From the NCBI RefSeq assembly GCF_014656435.1, contig NZ_BNCK01000002.1, positions 365,475-429,474 on the forward strand: DNA of 64,000 nt, in the 5' to 3' direction. This DNA is from Thalassotalea marina (GTDB lineage Bacteria > Pseudomonadota > Gammaproteobacteria > Enterobacterales > Alteromonadaceae). Positions 46,585 through 58,978 of this stretch are shown here, in pieces. The notes below the pieces were generated by a model that worked only from the letters and a program-made list of their open reading frames with translations, was not told the DNA's origin and did not search any database. Position numbers and translations under genes: made by a program. How positions within the stretch are numbered: the stretch's first letter is position 1; each line of letters starts with the position of its first letter.

Positions 46585-49500
46585 ATGTTAGGTAAAATGT
46601 TTTTATTTGAATGGCGATATTTTATTCGTCAACCGTCGTTTTATGTTACGAGTACTATATTCTTTTTGTTAACCTTTTTTGCCACGGTAAGTGAAAACGT
46701 GCAAATAGGTGGCGGTGGAAATGTGCTATATAACGGCCCCTATTCGATTGCACAAACCCTTTGTATTATGGGGCTTTTTGCGATGTTTTTGGTGGTGAAC
46801 TTTGTCGCAAGTACAGCAACAAGGAATGACACCTCTAAAATGGCGGAAATTTTATACAGTAAACCGATCAATCCGCTTAGTTATCAGTTGGGGCGTTTTT
46901 TAGGCTCCTTTGCCATGGTTGCTACCGTCTTTGCCTTTGTACCTCTGGGTATATTAGTCGGGACTGTTATTGGTGGATTACTCGGATGGGTTGATGCTGA
47001 GCGCTTAGGGCCAACAAACTTTACATATTATTTTACTGCTTACTTCTATTTAGCATTGCCAACACTACTGGTGTTGTCTTGTATGTTTTATGCGGTCGCT
47101 ATTCGCTTTCGCAGTATGATGGCGGTTTATCTCGTTGCGGTTGGTTTCTTTATTCTTTACACGGTGGCGGGACAGTTATTTTCTGATCCGGAATATCGTA
47201 CTATCGTCGCATTATCAGATCCTTTTGCTTTAAATACTTTTGGTGAAGTGACACGTTACTGGACGATGTTTGACAAAAACAATACCCCAGTAGCTTTAGA
47301 AGGTATTTTGCTGCAAAACCGCATTATTTGGTTGTTTGCAGCGGTTGTTATCATGGTGTTATTTGGTGGTTTTTCTCAAAAGGTAAAACTAAATCATCCC
47401 AAAGCATCTAAAAAAGAGCGACAAAAGCTAAGCAGTAACGGCGATGAAAAGTTAGCAAATAATATTCAATACAAATCAAGTGGTATTAAAACGGGTGCAC
47501 ATTTATTAATGCGCATTAAGTTTGAAATAAAGCAGGTTATATTTAGTGCGCCGTTTTTAGTGCTAGGTGCTTTGACTATTTTTGCGTTAGTTGCACCATT
47601 AATTGATCCTCGTGCCATGTTTGGTACACCTAATTGGCCAATTACCCAAAGTATGGTGTCATTGGTATTCTCTTCTACAAGCACGCTAATTTTAATCGTG
47701 TTGGCGTATTACAGCGCAGAGATTGTTTGGCGTGAGCGCAACTCTGGTATGGGAGATATAGTTGATTCAATGCCGGTTAATAACATAACGTTTTGGTTAT
47801 CAAAACTTGTTGCCATTAGCTTAGTTATCGCATTGCTTTATGTGTTTGGCACCTGTGTTACGGTAATGAATCAATTAATTCGAGGTTATGACAACTTAGA
47901 GTTATCGCAATACTTTATTCGCTTAGGTTACGTTAATTTAGTGCCTATGATCATGACAGCGGTATTAGCTTTCTTTTTACAAGTGATCAGTCCTAATAAG
48001 TACGCCGGTATGATGCTGTTTGTTCTTTACATCATATCAACGATAGTACTGAGTAATTTTGGCTTTAGTCACAATATGTTCCAGTTCTCTGGTGCACCAA
48101 CTGTTCAATACACTGACATCAACACTTATGGCAACTTTTTAACCGCTCATTCTTGGTACATGTTGTATTGGTTAGGTATGTCGATTGTATTGTCAGCACT
48201 AACTTATGCTTTATGGCATAGAGGACCGGCTAAATCATTAAAAGCACGTGTTAATACGCTTGGTTACTACTTAGGTAAAACCGGCAAAATAGCCGTTGCA
48301 TTGGGTGTAGGTATTTTTGTCATTGCTGGTAGTTATATACATTACAACACGCGAGTGCTAAATGAATATGTTATTCAAGATGATATTGAAGACAGACGGG
48401 CAGATTACGAAAAAAGCTACGTACAATATAAAAACGACCAATTGCCGACAATAACTCAAACTCACGCAAAAGTAGATATCTACCCAAGCGCACGTCGTAT
48501 TGAGGCCGTTGCGGAAATTACCATTGAAAATAAATCTGATCAGCCAATTACTCGATTCCTAGTGTCTCAACCGAATTATACTCCTGAGTGGGGAGTTGAA
48601 ATTGAAGGTGGAAAAGTTAGTGAGTTTGATGAAACTTACAACACAGGTTGGTTCGTTTTTGATGAGCCTTTGCAGCCGGGTGAACAGCGCACAGGTAAAT
48701 TGATCGCCAAGCGAGTTCACCAAGGATTTACTGACGGTAATTATGACTATTCGTTAGTGGAAAATGGTACTTTTATCAATAATTTTGATTTATTCCCTGT
48801 GTTTGGTTATCGAGAAGACTGGCAATTGTCTGATCGTCACGAAAGGCGTAAACGTGAACTTGAACCTTTGCAGCGCGCTAACAAGCTTGAAGAGTCTCAA
48901 TTTTACAATGAAAGCTTTTTTGGCAAAGGGATTGGCTTTATCAACTTTGAAGCAACTATCTCAACCAGTGAAGATCAATTTGCCATTGCACCTGGCTACA
49001 TTCAAAGTGAAAAAGTAGAAAATGGTCGTCGTATTTACCATTACAAAATGGACGCGCCTATGGTGAATTTCTACTCTATTATGTCGGCACGTTTAGAGTC
49101 TAAAAAAGAGACTTATAAAGGCATTAATATTGAGGTTTACTACCATAAAGATCATTTTATGAACGTAGACCGCATGATTGAATCTGTGCGTGATTCTATC
49201 GATTATTTCAGTAAAGTATTTGGTCCATACCAGCATCAACAAATGCGTATTATCGAGTTCCCTGGATATCGAAGTTTTGCACAAAGTTTCGCAAACACTG
49301 TGCCATATTCAGAAAGAATTGGATTTATAACGGATCTAAGGGATCCTGAAAATATCGACCCTGTTTATTACGTTACTGCTCATGAAGTGGCTCATCAATG
49401 GTGGGGACATCAAGTAGGTGCTGCCAATGTTCAAGGCAGTGCTATAATCTCTGAAACCTTGTCTCAGTATGCTGCGCTTATGGTCATGGAGAAAAAGTAC

Positions 49501-50160
49501 GGCCCTGAAAAAATCCGTAAGTTTCTAAAATATGAATTAGATTCATACTTACGTGGCCGCAGCGTTGAAAGGCTTGAAGAAATGCCTCTGTATCGCAGTG
49601 AAAATCAGGCCTACATTCACTATCGAAAAGGCTCTGTGGTGATGATGGCGATAAAAGACCGTATTGGAGAAAACAGGTTAAACAAAGCATTATCTGATTT
49701 TCTTGATGCGTATAAATATCAAAGTACACCGTATCCAACAACTCGTGATTTAATGGCGTACCTCAATCAAGATACCAATGAGCAAGAGCAAGCTTTTATC
49801 AGTAACTTGTTTGAACACATTACCTTGTATGACTTAAAAACAAGGCTTGTTGAAGTCAACGAGCGTGAAGATGGTCAATTTGATGTAGTAATTACAGTGG
49901 ATGCCGCCTTAAAACGTGCTGATGGCCAAGGACAAGAAACTGATGAAGACTTTGTTGAAATGATTGATATCGGTTTGTTCAGTGACGATCCAGAAGATCT
50001 TTCAGCAGATAATTTAGTGCAATACTTACAAAAGCATGAGATTAAATCTGGCGAAAATGTCATCACACTTGTGGTTAAGGAAAAACCTAAATATGTGGGG
50101 GTAGATCCTTTTGTGAAGTTAATTGACCGCGATAGTGCCGATAATATTTATCGACTATAA
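46585..50160 (+). CDS. ABC-2 permease fused to an M1-peptidase-like domain
   Basis: A 1191-aa fusion. The first about 600 residues hold two sets of ABC-2 permease helices (for example LGRFLGSFAMVATVFAFVPLG and FWLSKLVAISLVIALLYVFG), joined by a soluble linker. The rest (about 640-1191) is an M1-aminopeptidase-like domain, probably periplasmic. The zinc motif HEVAH is at 933-937; the next glutamate is 19 residues later instead of the classical 18. The exopeptidase motif GxMEN is not found at the expected place (IIEFPGYRSFAQSFANTVPY). Similar fusions exist in other bacteria, but their role is not established. It forms an operon with the ATPase gene. Confidence 0.9.
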   Translation: MLGKMFLFEWRYFIRQPSFYVTSTIFFLLTFFATVSENVQIGGGGNVLYNGPYSIAQTLCIMGLFAMFLVVNFVASTATRNDTSKMAEILYSKPINPLSYQLGRFLGSFAMVATVFAFVPLGILVGTVIGGLLGWVDAERLGPTNFTYYFTAYFYLALPTLLVLSCMFYAVAIRFRSMMAVYLVAVGFFILYTVAGQLFSDPEYRTIVALSDPFALNTFGEVTRYWTMFDKNNTPVALEGILLQNRIIWLFAAVVIMVLFGGFSQKVKLNHPKASKKERQKLSSNGDEKLANNIQYKSSGIKTGAHLLMRIKFEIKQVIFSAPFLVLGALTIFALVAPLIDPRAMFGTPNWPITQSMVSLVFSSTSTLILIVLAYYSAEIVWRERNSGMGDIVDSMPVNNITFWLSKLVAISLVIALLYVFGTCVTVMNQLIRGYDNLELSQYFIRLGYVNLVPMIMTAVLAFFLQVISPNKYAGMMLFVLYIISTIVLSNFGFSHNMFQFSGAPTVQYTDINTYGNFLTAHSWYMLYWLGMSIVLSALTYALWHRGPAKSLKARVNTLGYYLGKTGKIAVALGVGIFVIAGSYIHYNTRVLNEYVIQDDIEDRRADYEKSYVQYKNDQLPTITQTHAKVDIYPSARRIEAVAEITIENKSDQPITRFLVSQPNYTPEWGVEIEGGKVSEFDETYNTGWFVFDEPLQPGEQRTGKLIAKRVHQGFTDGNYDYSLVENGTFINNFDLFPVFGYREDWQLSDRHERRKRELEPLQRANKLEESQFYNESFFGKGIGFINFEATISTSEDQFAIAPGYIQSEKVENGRRIYHYKMDAPMVNFYSIMSARLESKKETYKGINIEVYYHKDHFMNVDRMIESVRDSIDYFSKVFGPYQHQQMRIIEFPGYRSFAQSFANTVPYSERIGFITDLRDPENIDPVYYVTAHEVAHQWWGHQVGAANVQGSAIISETLSQYAALMVMEKKYGPEKIRKFLKYELDSYLRGRSVERLEEMPLYRSENQAYIHYRKGSVVMMAIKDRIGENRLNKALSDFLDAYKYQSTPYPTTRDLMAYLNQDTNEQEQAFISNLFEHITLYDLKTRLVEVNEREDGQFDVVITVDAALKRADGQGQETDEDFVEMIDIGLFSDDPEDLSADNLVQYLQKHEIKSGENVITLVVKEKPKYVGVDPFVKLIDRDSADNIYRL

Positions 50161-53688: not shown

Positions 53689-54669
53689 CTATAAAGCGTG
53701 ACTTATGCTTTTTGTATCCAAACGCTGTGCATCTGTGTAAATAGTTTGTGGCCATATAAAGGTTGCAAAACATACTAAATAACCATTTGATAATTCATCT
53801 TTTACTAATGCTTTGCTTTTATATTGCTCAGGTACATATGTGGTAATTTGCTGGTCAAAGTTAGACTCATTAAAGGTTAGAAAATCAAACGAAGCAGGTT
53901 GCAAAATAGAGAGTAATTGTTTTGTCACTTTAAAAAGATCTACATTTGACTCAAAGCTCACGTAACTGCTCATTGCCTGAGGGGTAATATGTATTGTTAT
54001 ATATTCCTCACCTCTAATGGCATTTAGGGAGTAACCGTATGGCTGAAAAACAAAATCATCAATGCTATAACCTGGAAATAACACTTCAATATTTAGAAAA
54101 TCTCTAACGCATGCGGGTGTTAAATTGGGTCTTGTTAAACGTTCAGATACCTGTTTATTAATTTGATAAGCCAGTAATTGATAAGTTTTGTTATTTTCGT
54201 TCGCTTGAAAGTTATTGTGTTGGTGAAAAATATAATTGTGGTGGCTGTCAATTTCGCCAAAACGGTAGGCTTTACCATCAATAATACTTGATAGCCTTTT
54301 AGAGTCCTCACTGAAACTGCTTAGTTGAGCATGTGCGAAATATTCATTTTTGCGTTGATATATAACCTGCCTAATAAGGATGTTATCTATGTGCTGTAAA
54401 AAATATTCCACCGAATCAACTAAAGTAGTAACACCACAGGTGATAATGAGTAACTTGTTATGCCAAACAAAAAGGCTTGATTCAGAGAGTAAAAATGCTT
54501 TGCATTCTGAGTTTGATACAGAAGAGATAATTTGCGCGTTGCAGCGTTCTACCATGTTTTGCCAAAAACAATCATCAATATCATTCAATAAAGATAAACT
54601 GTTTTTATCAATAATAATTTCAGCTTTTTTTTCAGAACCTTCGAAAAACAAGATAACTCCCTTGGTCAA
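53689..54669 (-). CDS. S-adenosylmethionine decarboxylase, eukaryotic-type (class 2)
   Basis: Makes decarboxylated AdoMet, the aminopropyl donor for spermidine. The 326-aa protein matches the eukaryotic enzyme rather than bacterial SpeD. F-F-E-G-S-E (8-13) gives the two acidic residues equal to human Glu8 and Glu11. The self-cleavage motif L-S-E-S-S-L-F puts the pyruvoyl serine at Ser64, with Cys78 14 residues later, as Cys82 is in human. F-Q-P-Y-G-Y-S-L-N gives Phe208 and Ser214; TIHITP gives His227; YVSFESN follows. Human Glu247 is replaced by Gln231. Chain length is near human (334). Polyamine genes speB and speA lie 1.4 kb away. Confidence 0.88.
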   Translation of the reverse strand: MTKGVILFFEGSEKKAEIIIDKNSLSLLNDIDDCFWQNMVERCNAQIISSVSNSECKAFLLSESSLFVWHNKLLIITCGVTTLVDSVEYFLQHIDNILIRQVIYQRKNEYFAHAQLSSFSEDSKRLSSIIDGKAYRFGEIDSHHNYIFHQHNNFQANENNKTYQLLAYQINKQVSERLTRPNLTPACVRDFLNIEVLFPGYSIDDFVFQPYGYSLNAIRGEEYITIHITPQAMSSYVSFESNVDLFKVTKQLLSILQPASFDFLTFNESNFDQQITTYVPEQYKSKALVKDELSNGYLVCFATFIWPQTIYTDAQRLDTKSISHAL

Positions 54670-54879: not shown

Positions 54880-55668
54880 ATGATGTTTAAGTTATCACTC
54901 ATCGCCGTTATATTTTTTTTGAATTTTTCAGTATTTGCAGATGAAATTGCGGCAGACAACTTTGGTTATAAGTTAACCTCCCTCGAATATAAGTTAAAAA
55001 ATATTCAAGAAAATGGCAATGACATTGGTTTAGATGAAGCCGATGATAAAACAGTCATTGTCCCTATAGGTTTTAGTTTTTCTTTTTATGGTGAAGAATA
55101 CACAGAACTTGAAATATCTTCGAATGGTTTTGTTACTTTTACACCCACAGGAGATGCAGTGTGTTGTGATGGGCAAGTCATTCCAACATTAGGTGGAGAA
55201 TTAGACAACTTTATTGCTGGGTATTGGCAAGATTTTGATTTATCAGAAAGTGGCGTTATTCGCACCTTAAATCAAGACATTAATGGACAAACAACATTTA
55301 CTATCGGCTTTTATCAATTAGCTGATAATGATAATGCTAGTGAAGCGGTAAGCACTTTTGAAATAACACTATACCAAGGTACCAATGACATAGAGCTTCA
55401 ATATGCTCAAATACAATATGATGAAATTGATGACAAAGTTTTAGGTATCGAAAACCAAGACGGTTCAGATGGCATTCAATTAGCATTTTATGAAGCCAAC
55501 AATGGCATGGCCAATGGTACTATTTTACAGCAAGAAAAAGGTTATTGTTTTAGTACAAAATATCAATGTAAAACGCCGACCAAAGAGCCTACACCTATTC
55601 CTGAACCACCGATGATATTACTGTTTATATTAAGCTCTTTATTTTTAGCAACTAGATACTTTAAATAA
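54880..55668 (+). CDS. PEP-CTERM sorting-domain protein
   Basis: A 262-aa exported protein. Signal peptide at about 1-20 (ending SVFA), followed by a beta-rich domain with VPIGFSFSFYGEEYTELEIS and SNGFVTFTPTGD that resembles nidogen-like or similar surface domains. Then comes a proline-rich linker and the C-terminal P-E-P, a hydrophobic helix (MILLFILSSLFLA) and the basic end RYFK. This is the PEP-CTERM tripartite signal recognised by exosortase. Two ATG codons (54880, 54883) follow AAAAGGAATTAG. Its function is unknown; exosortase is not in the window. Confidence 0.75.
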   Translation: MMFKLSLIAVIFFLNFSVFADEIAADNFGYKLTSLEYKLKNIQENGNDIGLDEADDKTVIVPIGFSFSFYGEEYTELEISSNGFVTFTPTGDAVCCDGQVIPTLGGELDNFIAGYWQDFDLSESGVIRTLNQDINGQTTFTIGFYQLADNDNASEAVSTFEITLYQGTNDIELQYAQIQYDEIDDKVLGIENQDGSDGIQLAFYEANNGMANGTILQQEKGYCFSTKYQCKTPTKEPTPIPEPPMILLFILSSLFLATRYFK

Positions 55669-56088: not shown

Positions 56089-57036
56089 GTGATAAAAGTC
56101 AAAGATATTGACATCGAGTTACAACATACTGATGCACAGTATAGTGGCTCATTAGATACTCAAGGTATTTTCGCTAATGCTACGCATTTAATTGGCTTTG
56201 GTTTTGATGGTACTGCGTGTTTTCGCAAGGGTACTAAACATGGCCCAGATGCGTTACGTGCTGTATCTGATGATATAGAAACGTATTCACCGTATCTTGA
56301 TGAAGATATTAGTGATGTCATGTTTTATGACTTAGGAAATTTAAAGGTTGAACCTGCCGATGGTGTTAACCGCGACGCGCTTTCCGAGCATGACTTGATT
56401 GAAGCAAGCTGGCAACGAGCAACTGATGATTACTGTAGTTTAATGTCAGGCATCGATTTAGAAAAACATCAGGTAAAAACGTTAGTGCTTGGTGGTGAAC
56501 ATTCTATTTCTTATGGACCTATTAAAACCTATTTGGCGCAATACCCAAATTTAGTGTTACTACATTTAGATGCTCATGCAGATTTACGCGATGGATATTT
56601 AGGTTTTCATCAATCTCACGCATCGATTATTCGTCGTTCATTAGATCATTTTGGACCAGACCATCAATTAATCCAATACGGCATTCGCTCTGGAACTCGA
56701 GATGAGTACAAGTGGATGCGTGAAAATGGTACGTTAAAAACAAGTCGTCAAGAGTTTTTAGATGCGGTAGCAGCGATCCCTGAAGATCGCCCTATATACT
56801 TGACGTTTGACTTGGACTTTTTTGATCCGAGTTATTTTCCTGGTACGGGGACACCTGAGCCGGGCGGTGAAGATTTTCATGCTTTTGTAAGTTTATGCAA
56901 GCTTTTGAAAAACAAAAAATTTGTAGGTTGTGATGTTGTGGAGTTGTCTCCTGAGATTGATCCGACAGGCAATAGTGATGTGTTTGCCGCGAAAGTGGTA
57001 CGTGAATTAGTTTTGTGTTTAAGAGAAAGAGACTAA
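56089..57036 (+). CDS. speB: Agmatinase / ureohydrolase SpeB
   Basis: Manganese enzyme that hydrolyses agmatine to putrescine and urea. Metal-binding motifs are GGEHSISYG (His, about 144), LDAHADLRD (about 168-176) and TFDLDFFDPSYFPGTGTPEPGG (about 240-260, in parts). 315 aa, typical. Start is GTG at 56089, but AAAAGG is better spaced for an ATG at 56082 in another frame that encodes nine codons ending inside speB, so leader-peptide coupling is possible. The next gene, speA, is 4 bp downstream. Assignment rests on context; other ureohydrolases use the same motifs. Confidence 0.88.
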   Translation: MIKVKDIDIELQHTDAQYSGSLDTQGIFANATHLIGFGFDGTACFRKGTKHGPDALRAVSDDIETYSPYLDEDISDVMFYDLGNLKVEPADGVNRDALSEHDLIEASWQRATDDYCSLMSGIDLEKHQVKTLVLGGEHSISYGPIKTYLAQYPNLVLLHLDAHADLRDGYLGFHQSHASIIRRSLDHFGPDHQLIQYGIRSGTRDEYKWMRENGTLKTSRQEFLDAVAAIPEDRPIYLTFDLDFFDPSYFPGTGTPEPGGEDFHAFVSLCKLLKNKKFVGCDVVELSPEIDPTGNSDVFAAKVVRELVLCLRERD

Positions 57037-57040
57037 AGAA

Positions 57041-58978
57041 TTGGGCAATAAAGTAGAAAGTAGCAGCAATTCAGCTGCTTGGACTGTTGCAGACGCAGAG
57101 AACGTATATCGTGTAAAGCGTTGGGGGAATGGCTATTTTGACATTGGTGACAATGGCAATCTACACGTCATTCCGCGATATGATCAACCAAATTTAAAAA
57201 TTGATATGCTCGAAGTTATCAATGAAATGCAGGCCGAAGGGATAGAATTTCCTGCGGTGATTCGATTTCACGATATTTTGAGATCTCAAGTCGAGCTATT
57301 AAATAAAACGTTTCGCCGAATTATGGAAGAAGCGGATTACGAAGGCAGATACTTTGGCGTTTTTCCTGTCAAAGTAAACCAAATGCGTGAAGTAATTGAA
57401 GAAATTGTTGATGCAGGTACTCGGTTTAACTACGGATTAGAAGCTGGCTCCAAGCCAGAATTAATCGCTGCTTTAGCTTACAACACCAACAAAGACTCAT
57501 TAACGGTGTTAAATGGATACAAAGACGAAGAATATTTACGTCTAGCCATGCTTGGCACGCAAATGAATCGCAAAGTTGTTGTGGTCATTGAAAAATTCTC
57601 TGAGCTTAGAAAACTCATCGCATTGACAAAAGTCACCGGCATTATGCCTATGATTGGTCTGCGCGTTAAAATGATGGTTAAAGGGCGAGGTAAGTGGGAA
57701 AGCTCAAGCGGTGAACGCGCAAAGTTCGGATTAAGTATTGCTGAAATATTAAATGCTGTTGAGTTACTTGAGCGTGAAAACATGCTTGAAGCAGCTAAAT
57801 TATTACACTTTCACATTGGCAGCCAATTAACTGATATTCGAGCAATTAAAGAAGCAGTACAAGAAGCTTCAACAATCTATACGCAGTTAGTGAAAAGAGG
57901 TGTGCCATTACAGTATGTTGATGTTGGCGGTGGTTTAGCGATTGATTATGATGGCTCTCAATCAACACAAGATTCATCATGTAACTACAACTTAGATGAA
58001 TACGTGTCAGATATAGTTTATGGCTTCAAACAAAGTTGTGACCTTGCCGATGTACCACATCCTCATTTAGTGAGCGAAAGCGGTCGTGCAATGACGGCTC
58101 ATCACTCTTGTGTGGTAACTAAAGTTATAGGTGAAATTCAACCGAATGGCATCGACTTTTCAACACGCAAAGCCACAGGTGAACATATTATTGTAAGTAA
58201 TATGCGTACACTTGAAACTGATTTAACTGAATTAAATCTACAAGAAGCATTTAATGACGCTAACCAGTTGAAAGAACAAGCCATTCAAGCTTTTAAGTTA
58301 GGTGTGTTAAACATCATCGAAATGGGCAAGGTTGAAACTATCTACTGGCGCTTGTTAAAGAATATTAATACAGCATTGCAGGGTGAAGAGTTTATACCAG
58401 AAGAAATGCAGGAAATCCCTGAAATGTTGTCATCACAATACTTGGCTAACTTTTCAGTATTCCAGTCAGCAGCTGACTCGTGGGCTATCGACCAAGTACT
58501 GCCTGTTGTACCAATTTCTCGCTTAAATGAAAAGCCAACTAAATTATGTAGTTTGGTTGATATTACCTGTGACAGTGACGGTAAAATTGACAAGTTCATC
58601 GGTGAAGGTGAAGTTGCTACAAACTTACCAATGCATGAACTACAACCGGAGCAAGACTATTTCATCGGCTTGTTTTTAACAGGTGCATACCAAGACGTAA
58701 TGGGTGATATGCATAACTTATTTGGCAGGTTGAATGAGGTGCATGTATTTAGTTATGACGACGACCCTAAAGACTTCTACATTGAAGAAGTGGTCAAAGG
58801 ATCGTCCATTGACCACGTGCTTTCAACGATGCAGTATAACCCGGCTATTATGGCGCAGATGATCAAAAAAGAAATTGACCAACAAATCCAGCGCGGTTCA
58901 ATCAAGCCAAGGCAAGGGGTGCAATTAGTCGACTTTTACGAAGACTGCTTGGGTGCATATACTTATCTAAAAAGCTAA
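57041..58978 (+). CDS. speA: Biosynthetic arginine decarboxylase SpeA
   Basis: PLP enzyme that makes agmatine from arginine, the substrate of the neighbouring SpeB. Start is TTG at 57041, 4 bp after the speB stop. The alanine-racemase-fold barrel has the PLP lysine in GVFPVKVNQMREV (Lys111), and HFHIGSQLTDIRAI with VDVGGGLAIDYDG. 645 aa, the family length of 630-660. It lies in operon with speB. Putrescine made here is the acceptor of aminopropyl groups derived from the AdoMet decarboxylase product. Confidence 0.95.
   Translation: MGNKVESSSNSAAWTVADAENVYRVKRWGNGYFDIGDNGNLHVIPRYDQPNLKIDMLEVINEMQAEGIEFPAVIRFHDILRSQVELLNKTFRRIMEEADYEGRYFGVFPVKVNQMREVIEEIVDAGTRFNYGLEAGSKPELIAALAYNTNKDSLTVLNGYKDEEYLRLAMLGTQMNRKVVVVIEKFSELRKLIALTKVTGIMPMIGLRVKMMVKGRGKWESSSGERAKFGLSIAEILNAVELLERENMLEAAKLLHFHIGSQLTDIRAIKEAVQEASTIYTQLVKRGVPLQYVDVGGGLAIDYDGSQSTQDSSCNYNLDEYVSDIVYGFKQSCDLADVPHPHLVSESGRAMTAHHSCVVTKVIGEIQPNGIDFSTRKATGEHIIVSNMRTLETDLTELNLQEAFNDANQLKEQAIQAFKLGVLNIIEMGKVETIYWRLLKNINTALQGEEFIPEEMQEIPEMLSSQYLANFSVFQSAADSWAIDQVLPVVPISRLNEKPTKLCSLVDITCDSDGKIDKFIGEGEVATNLPMHELQPEQDYFIGLFLTGAYQDVMGDMHNLFGRLNEVHVFSYDDDPKDFYIEEVVKGSSIDHVLSTMQYNPAIMAQMIKKEIDQQIQRGSIKPRQGVQLVDFYEDCLGAYTYLKS

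Follow-up and report, generated by a model that had tools for sequence, protein, structure and literature searches.

A class 2 AdoMetDC gene beside speB and speA

The window (the whole stretch of 64,000 nucleotides of Thalassotalea marina DNA that was analysed) contains an open reading frame of 326 aa, starting with TTG, at 53689–54669 on the minus strand, which the original prediction took as the gene of a class 2 S-adenosylmethionine decarboxylase (AdoMetDC). The ORF list and the translation showed the frame to be real, but a shorter gene is more probable. A probable ribosome-binding site, AAGGGAG (54657–54663, minus strand), was read directly inside the longer frame and sits 5 bases upstream of another TTG at 54651, so that translation probably starts there and the gene spans 53689–54651 (minus strand, 320 aa). 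On the plus strand lie speB, encoding agmatinase (56089–57036), and speA, encoding biosynthetic arginine decarboxylase (57041–58978), both of which passed their NCBIfam cut-offs; relatives, too, have speB next to the class 2 gene. In the window these two genes are separated by an ORF of 262 aa (54880–55668, plus strand) with weak PEP-CTERM matches below the cut-offs (E 0.017 and 0.045), and the spacing of the two genes was tighter in the relatives read than in the window.

The identity of the protein was examined using profile searches. PF01536 (SAM_decarbox) matched at 5e-54 (184.1 bits against a cut-off of 22.2), with residues 8–304 of the protein aligned to positions 3–342 of the 343 in the profile, and it was the sole Pfam family found at E 0.1; the class 1 family PF02675 did not match. 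Since the TIGR00535 equivalog cut-off was missed (126.6 against 233.15 bits), class 2 membership rests on PF01536 and on the residues. Human AdoMetDC (1MSV) matched the protein with an E-value of 2.9e-22, and of 1.6e-46 when a profile of 14 relatives was used. Alignment with the human enzyme located the equivalent of human Glu67-Ser68, the predicted self-cleavage site, at Glu57-Ser58 (codons 54478–54483, minus strand), and this pair was kept in 44/44 SpeE-adjacent and 29/29 SpeE-less rows of bacterial class 2 enzymes. The equivalents of Glu8, Glu11, Cys82, Ser229 and His243 were also all present. E10, E13, S64, C78, F208, S214 and H227 (326-aa numbering) and the LSESS motif stand where they had been placed, and the predicted replacement of human Glu247 by Gln231 (same numbering) was confirmed by the alignment. 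We considered whether this Gln was a peculiarity of the window protein and rejected the idea, as it is general in bacterial relatives (42/44 SpeE-adjacent enzymes and 27/29 from SpeE-less genomes).

Judged by its sequence, the gene encodes an intact class 2 (eukaryote-type) AdoMetDC, in agreement with the prediction. It matches the eukaryotic enzymes (human AMD1, 1MSV/1JL0/1I7B; PF01536) over its whole length and shares their cleavage motif and catalytic residues, and differs from human AMD1 in having Gln at Glu247, Asn at Asp174 and Gln at Glu178, and in belonging to a genome without SpeE. Self-cleavage is expected between Glu57 and Ser58, forming a pyruvoyl group, and the enzyme would convert AdoMet into decarboxylated AdoMet (dcAdoMet).

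Polyamine genes in the rest of the genome

The genome comprises 4.87 Mb in 31 contigs, with a completeness of 100. It carries one PF01536 match, the window gene, and a search of the whole genome for a PF02675 speD found none, while the same search was positive in 8/14 control genomes. The window gene is thus the sole AdoMetDC, class 1 or class 2, that the genome searches found, and the normal speD that would have spoken against the prediction did not turn up. When the genome was searched using PF01564, no soluble SpeE was found; the two matches were a protein of 573 aa (109 bits) and a weak relative of 296 aa. The latter (L003; 49–50 bits) was not adopted as the missing aminopropyltransferase, as DAFNG replaces DxxDP in its sequence. 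The PF02675 and PF01564 genome searches also led us to reject a normal speD or SpeE hidden elsewhere. The expectation that the gene would complete a putrescine-to-spermidine supply with an aminopropyltransferase encoded elsewhere is therefore unsupported: the genome search did not find the soluble spermidine synthase of the SpeD–SpeE pathway.

We also found a gene pair resembling carboxynorspermidine synthase and decarboxylase (CANSDH/CANSDC-like; L055 176–2625, G000:C3 about 208294–210743), neither member of which reached its NCBIfam equivalog cut-off. The pair could be an AdoMetDC-independent source of (nor)spermidine. As a general explanation of SpeE loss this route failed, because TIGR01047 at E 1e-30 was found in just 2/50 class 2 genomes. 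An ORF on the opposite strand after the pair resembles, by eye, a TonB-dependent receptor.

Bacterial class 2 enzymes and the absence of SpeE

Class 2 AdoMetDC in bacteria is a kind already in print. According to an excerpt of PMC10407285, which cites Li et al. 2019, certain bacteria have a class 2 AdoMetDC whose phylogeny points to a eukaryotic origin; the window enzyme belongs to this same bacterial kind. Relatives were found to be encoded by 366 stretches of the GTDB collection, selected by carrying one of two conserved peptides, and the best 80 of these 366 loci, from Pseudomonadota and Bdellovibrionota, were kept for analysis. PF01536 was detected in 15/59 relatives, 60/295 genomes of the order and 10/398 of the phylum, so the bacterial branch that had been suspected has many members. 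Class 1 speD occurred in 12/59 relatives and in 0/15 of those with class 2.

In many relatives speA-speB stands divergent from class 2-speE, and the window locus is the speA-speB plus class 2 arrangement of these relatives minus speE; no trace of speE was found when it was looked for in the window. A full-length SpeE-like gene was present in the flanks of 50 of the best 80 of 366 loci and absent from those of the other 30. In two of these 30 (L062 and L065) SpeE is fragmented and lacks its middle part, and the flanks of L085 hold a weak SpeE trace. For 50 of the 80 loci the genome was searched with PF01564; of the 30 in this set without nearby SpeE, 9 had SpeE elsewhere and 21 had none. In the order sample, 44/60 class 2 genomes were without SpeE and 16 had it. 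These SpeE states, and those of the membrane protein described below, were assigned from the score and the length of the frame (for SpeE, some 200 bits or more; for the membrane protein, about 90–137 bits and a frame of at least 560 aa). On an 81-row tree, in which the no-SpeE label also covers the second copies L063 and L106, supported branches alone required the SpeE label to change at least 5 times, and the best trees had 13 to 16 changes. Because of the shared gene order and the two broken SpeE copies, we infer that the absence of SpeE is loss and not gain, a question on which the change counts alone cannot tell.

Many of the SpeE-less enzymes sit on longer branches of the tree. The ratio dN/dS was 0.07–0.13 in six class 2 pairs without adjacent SpeE (one including L063 and one with dS above 2; a seventh was saturated), and 0.03–0.10 in four SpeE-linked pairs (a fifth was saturated).

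A membrane aminopropyltransferase-like protein in a PspA operon

The 573-aa protein, here called mAPT for membrane aminopropyltransferase, contains hydrophobic stretches as far as residue 243, followed by a PF01564 domain at 302–493, with the motifs GGGDG and DLPDP (DxxDP). It passes NF002956, a polyamine aminopropyltransferase model (592 against 472 bits), and is the one plausible aminopropyltransferase, and thus consumer of dcAdoMet, found in the genome. Its gene adjoins those of DUF350, DUF2170 and PspA in a row about 70 kb from the window gene; a DUF4178-like gene, below its cut-off, comes next after the DUF350-mAPT-DUF2170-PspA row. An operon group of this composition is on record: an excerpt of PMC11237479 describes CesT/Tir(DUF2170)-PspA with a seven-transmembrane (7TM) spermine/spermidine-synthase-like protein and DUF350, and the genome has the same row. 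The excerpt also mentions that related operons include an AdoMetDC gene and, citing Li 2019, raises the aminopropylation of other substrates. For the CesT/Tir(DUF2170)-PspA group itself it lists no AdoMetDC, whereas here the class 2 enzyme, encoded elsewhere in the genome, would supply dcAdoMet.

The occurrence of mAPT was then compared with that of SpeE. Among the genomes of the 50 loci, mAPT was present in 21/21 without SpeE compared to 15/29 with SpeE (Fisher 9e-5, kinship ignored), and among class 2 genomes of the order sample in 44/44 without SpeE compared to 10/16 with it. Across the 59 relatives, it was found in 22/27 with any AdoMetDC and in 1/32 without. In the flanks of the best 80 of 366 loci no mAPT was found, only SpeE-like matches to it. 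In one genome (G035; L170 8865–13096), lipoprotein-like, DUF350 and mAPT genes stand in a row and a class 1b speD-like gene follows directly after mAPT; this last gene scored above the PF02675 cut-off and below that of TIGR03330 (47 against 75.65 bits).

Changes at the putrescine site

Human AdoMetDC is activated by putrescine, which is commonly seen as a control tying the enzyme to spermidine synthesis. A quartet of residues, Glu15, Asp174, Glu178 and Glu256, was chosen before any ranking of columns, with Glu178 and Glu256 included as what we take to be putrescine-site residues; Thr176 joined the site after the ranking had shown it. Table 3 of PMC3686867 gives Glu15, Asp174 and Thr176 as hydrogen bonding putrescine in human 1I7B, and an excerpt of PMC5201418 names Asp174 and Glu15 as shared with trypanosome sites. 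The window enzyme retains Glu15, Thr176 and Glu256, and it has Asn154 (codon 54190–54192, minus strand) at the contact Asp174 and Gln158 (codon 54178–54180, minus strand) at Glu178. With that contact changed, though Glu15 and Thr176 are kept, it lacks the full contact set of a putrescine-activated AdoMetDC.

An alignment that took in 72 of the best 80 of 366 loci (L072, L081, L096, L128, L130, L134, L138 and L136 were not in it; the second copies L063 and L106 were tabled apart) revealed that the quartet was intact in 44/44 enzymes with SpeE nearby, in 6/6 with SpeE elsewhere and in 3/29 from SpeE-less genomes (L009, L013 and L085). The catalytic positions stayed in the 29 SpeE-less enzymes, except for Glu11 to Val in L013, from the genus of the window (G003), which keeps its quartet in a SpeE-less genome. 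We further ranked columns blind, scoring the 54 that were invariant in 50 SpeE-bearing rows by the number of differing rows among 27 SpeE-less ones, with L016 and L017 left out for their very long branches. Columns 174 (13) and 176 (13, of which 11 were Thr to Ser) came first, followed by 15 (11), 72 (8, Val to Ile) and 256 (7), and the median was 0. In two genomes with two copies (L075/L063 and L088/L106), the copy on the SpeE side keeps the quartet and the copy without nearby SpeE has it broken.

The expectation on the quartet was noted first, and the class 2 genes of the order sample were then fetched as a test. Among 44 new genes, the quartet was intact in 8/8 with SpeE compared to 6/36 without (Fisher 2e-5, kinship ignored). 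This count is without nine genomes already among the loci, all of which agree with the pattern; two of the nine, those of L096 and L130, were absent from the earlier alignment too. The six new SpeE-less keepers were all among 12 SpeE-less enzymes of the Shewanella group, and the eight catalytic positions were intact in 44/44 new genes, including the 36 from SpeE-less genomes. Ranking the columns on the new rows only, where 8 SpeE-bearing rows define invariance, failed to single out the putrescine site: without families f11 and f12, columns 174 and 176 came out near ninth place among 108, and for Shewanella by itself neither was among the 12 columns listed.

The class 2 enzymes of these two families are short, many of them around 270 aa, and highly divergent (f11, for example L016, L210–L221, L223–L228, L230 and L231; f12, L017, L222, L229 and L232). 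They keep the eight catalytic positions, the quartet is broken in 23/23 of their new rows, and two f11 genes contain stops within the family match.

A set of 95 rows was also analysed, omitting L016, L017, L063, L106, the same nine genomes, all f11 and f12 rows and three near-copies. Columns 176, 174 and 15 were again the top three (20, 19 and 12 of 39 SpeE-less rows), and the contact triad Glu15-Asp174-Thr176 was intact in 56/56 SpeE-bearing compared to 6/39 SpeE-less rows. An initial test of pairs, run on a quickly built tree, did not reach significance (p 0.125). On a careful tree of the 95 rows, with the site columns masked and seven independent SpeE-differing pairs on supported branches, the triad changed in the same direction in 6.8 of the seven pairs and never in reverse (median p 0.0156, 0.0156–0.0625); for the quartet the figure was 5.7 pairs (median p 0.031, range to 0.125). 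Collectively, the absence of SpeE is repeatedly associated with the presence of mAPT and with changes at the putrescine site.

A proposed role for the decarboxylase

We think it probable that the window gene encodes a working class 2 AdoMetDC, uncoupled from putrescine, that feeds mAPT. The ancestral type of locus would have been speA-speB with class 2-speE, from which SpeE was presumably lost in the lineage of the window and in others. The decarboxylase would then have been kept with its catalytic residues while the residues holding putrescine changed, and with them, we infer, activation was lost. The flow of dcAdoMet to mAPT would constitute a putrescine-uncoupled supply of aminopropyl donor to the DUF350/DUF2170/PspA envelope system. 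That the genome is without the usual partner SpeE and that the putrescine pocket is altered suggest that the donor now feeds the membrane enzyme of an envelope-stress operon. Several results count against this reading: the class 2 gene is not adjacent to mAPT in this genome or in the flanks of the 80 loci, the quartet survives in six of the 12 SpeE-less Shewanella enzymes and in L009, L013 and L085, and the window enzyme itself retains Glu15, Thr176 and Glu256. The ranking on the new rows, which was not site-specific, and the non-significant first pair test weigh in the same direction. A wider proposal, which we offer tentatively and would not yet bet on, is that in several marine gammaproteobacterial lineages the class 2 AdoMetDC lost SpeE and then its putrescine pocket, and became a dedicated donor source for the membrane enzyme, whose aminopropylation target in the PspA envelope-stress system would be something other than a polyamine (a lipid, cell-wall material or a protein). 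A polyamine-independent role of AdoMetDC is named in the title of Li 2019.

Ordinary spermidine synthesis, with mAPT having replaced SpeE and using putrescine from SpeA and SpeB together with dcAdoMet from the class 2 enzyme, is an account that we consider rather unlikely. mAPT passes a polyamine aminopropyltransferase model and keeps GGGDG and DxxDP, speA and speB are retained, and mAPT might still be a spermidine synthase because neither SpeE nor CANSDC (E 1e-30) was found in 19/21 of the SpeE-less genomes with a class 2 gene, which thus have no other spermidine route among those looked for. Nor does insensitivity to putrescine exclude spermidine as the product, because plant AdoMetDC is described in an excerpt of PMC3686867 as being without the putrescine site. 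However, the putrescine contacts decay where SpeE is absent, the window genome has the CANSDH/CANSDC-like pair, and mAPT also co-occurs with intact SpeE in 15/29 genomes.

A change of substrate has been reported, in an excerpt of PMC10407285, for class 1b SpeD homologues that turned into arginine or ornithine decarboxylases in genomes without SpeE. Such a change here strikes us as very improbable, considering that the equivalents of human Glu67, Phe223 and His243 are kept in 29/29 SpeE-less enzymes, that the place of Phe7 holds Phe in 25 and Tyr in 4 of them, that SpeA is encoded next door, and that the mAPT present in all 44 SpeE-less class 2 genomes of the order sample needs dcAdoMet if it is an aminopropyltransferase. 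We give still less credence to a decaying leftover without present function. The longer branches of many SpeE-less enzymes and the stops in the two f11 genes would fit decay, but dN/dS is 0.07–0.13 where adjacent SpeE is missing, catalytic positions are fully kept in the later genes, and the changes concentrate in one pocket.

Bacteria keeping AdoMetDC without SpeE provide a natural test of the idea that putrescine control is tied to spermidine synthesis: the contacts of the activator change once the pathway is gone, and the active site stays. The question of what mAPT does in PspA operons is also narrowed, as organisms with no other aminopropyltransferase and with a putrescine-detuned decarboxylase are a good place for an acceptor search. 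We found no title or opening abstract on putrescine-site change with SpeE loss in bacterial class 2 enzymes; the text of Li 2019 lay outside that search, so the association is not claimed to be unpublished.

Another gene in the window

At 46585–50160 (plus strand) the window encodes a protein of 1191 aa that by eye combines a membrane transporter part with an M1-type peptidase (HEVAHQWWGHQ), and an ABC ATPase gene precedes it.
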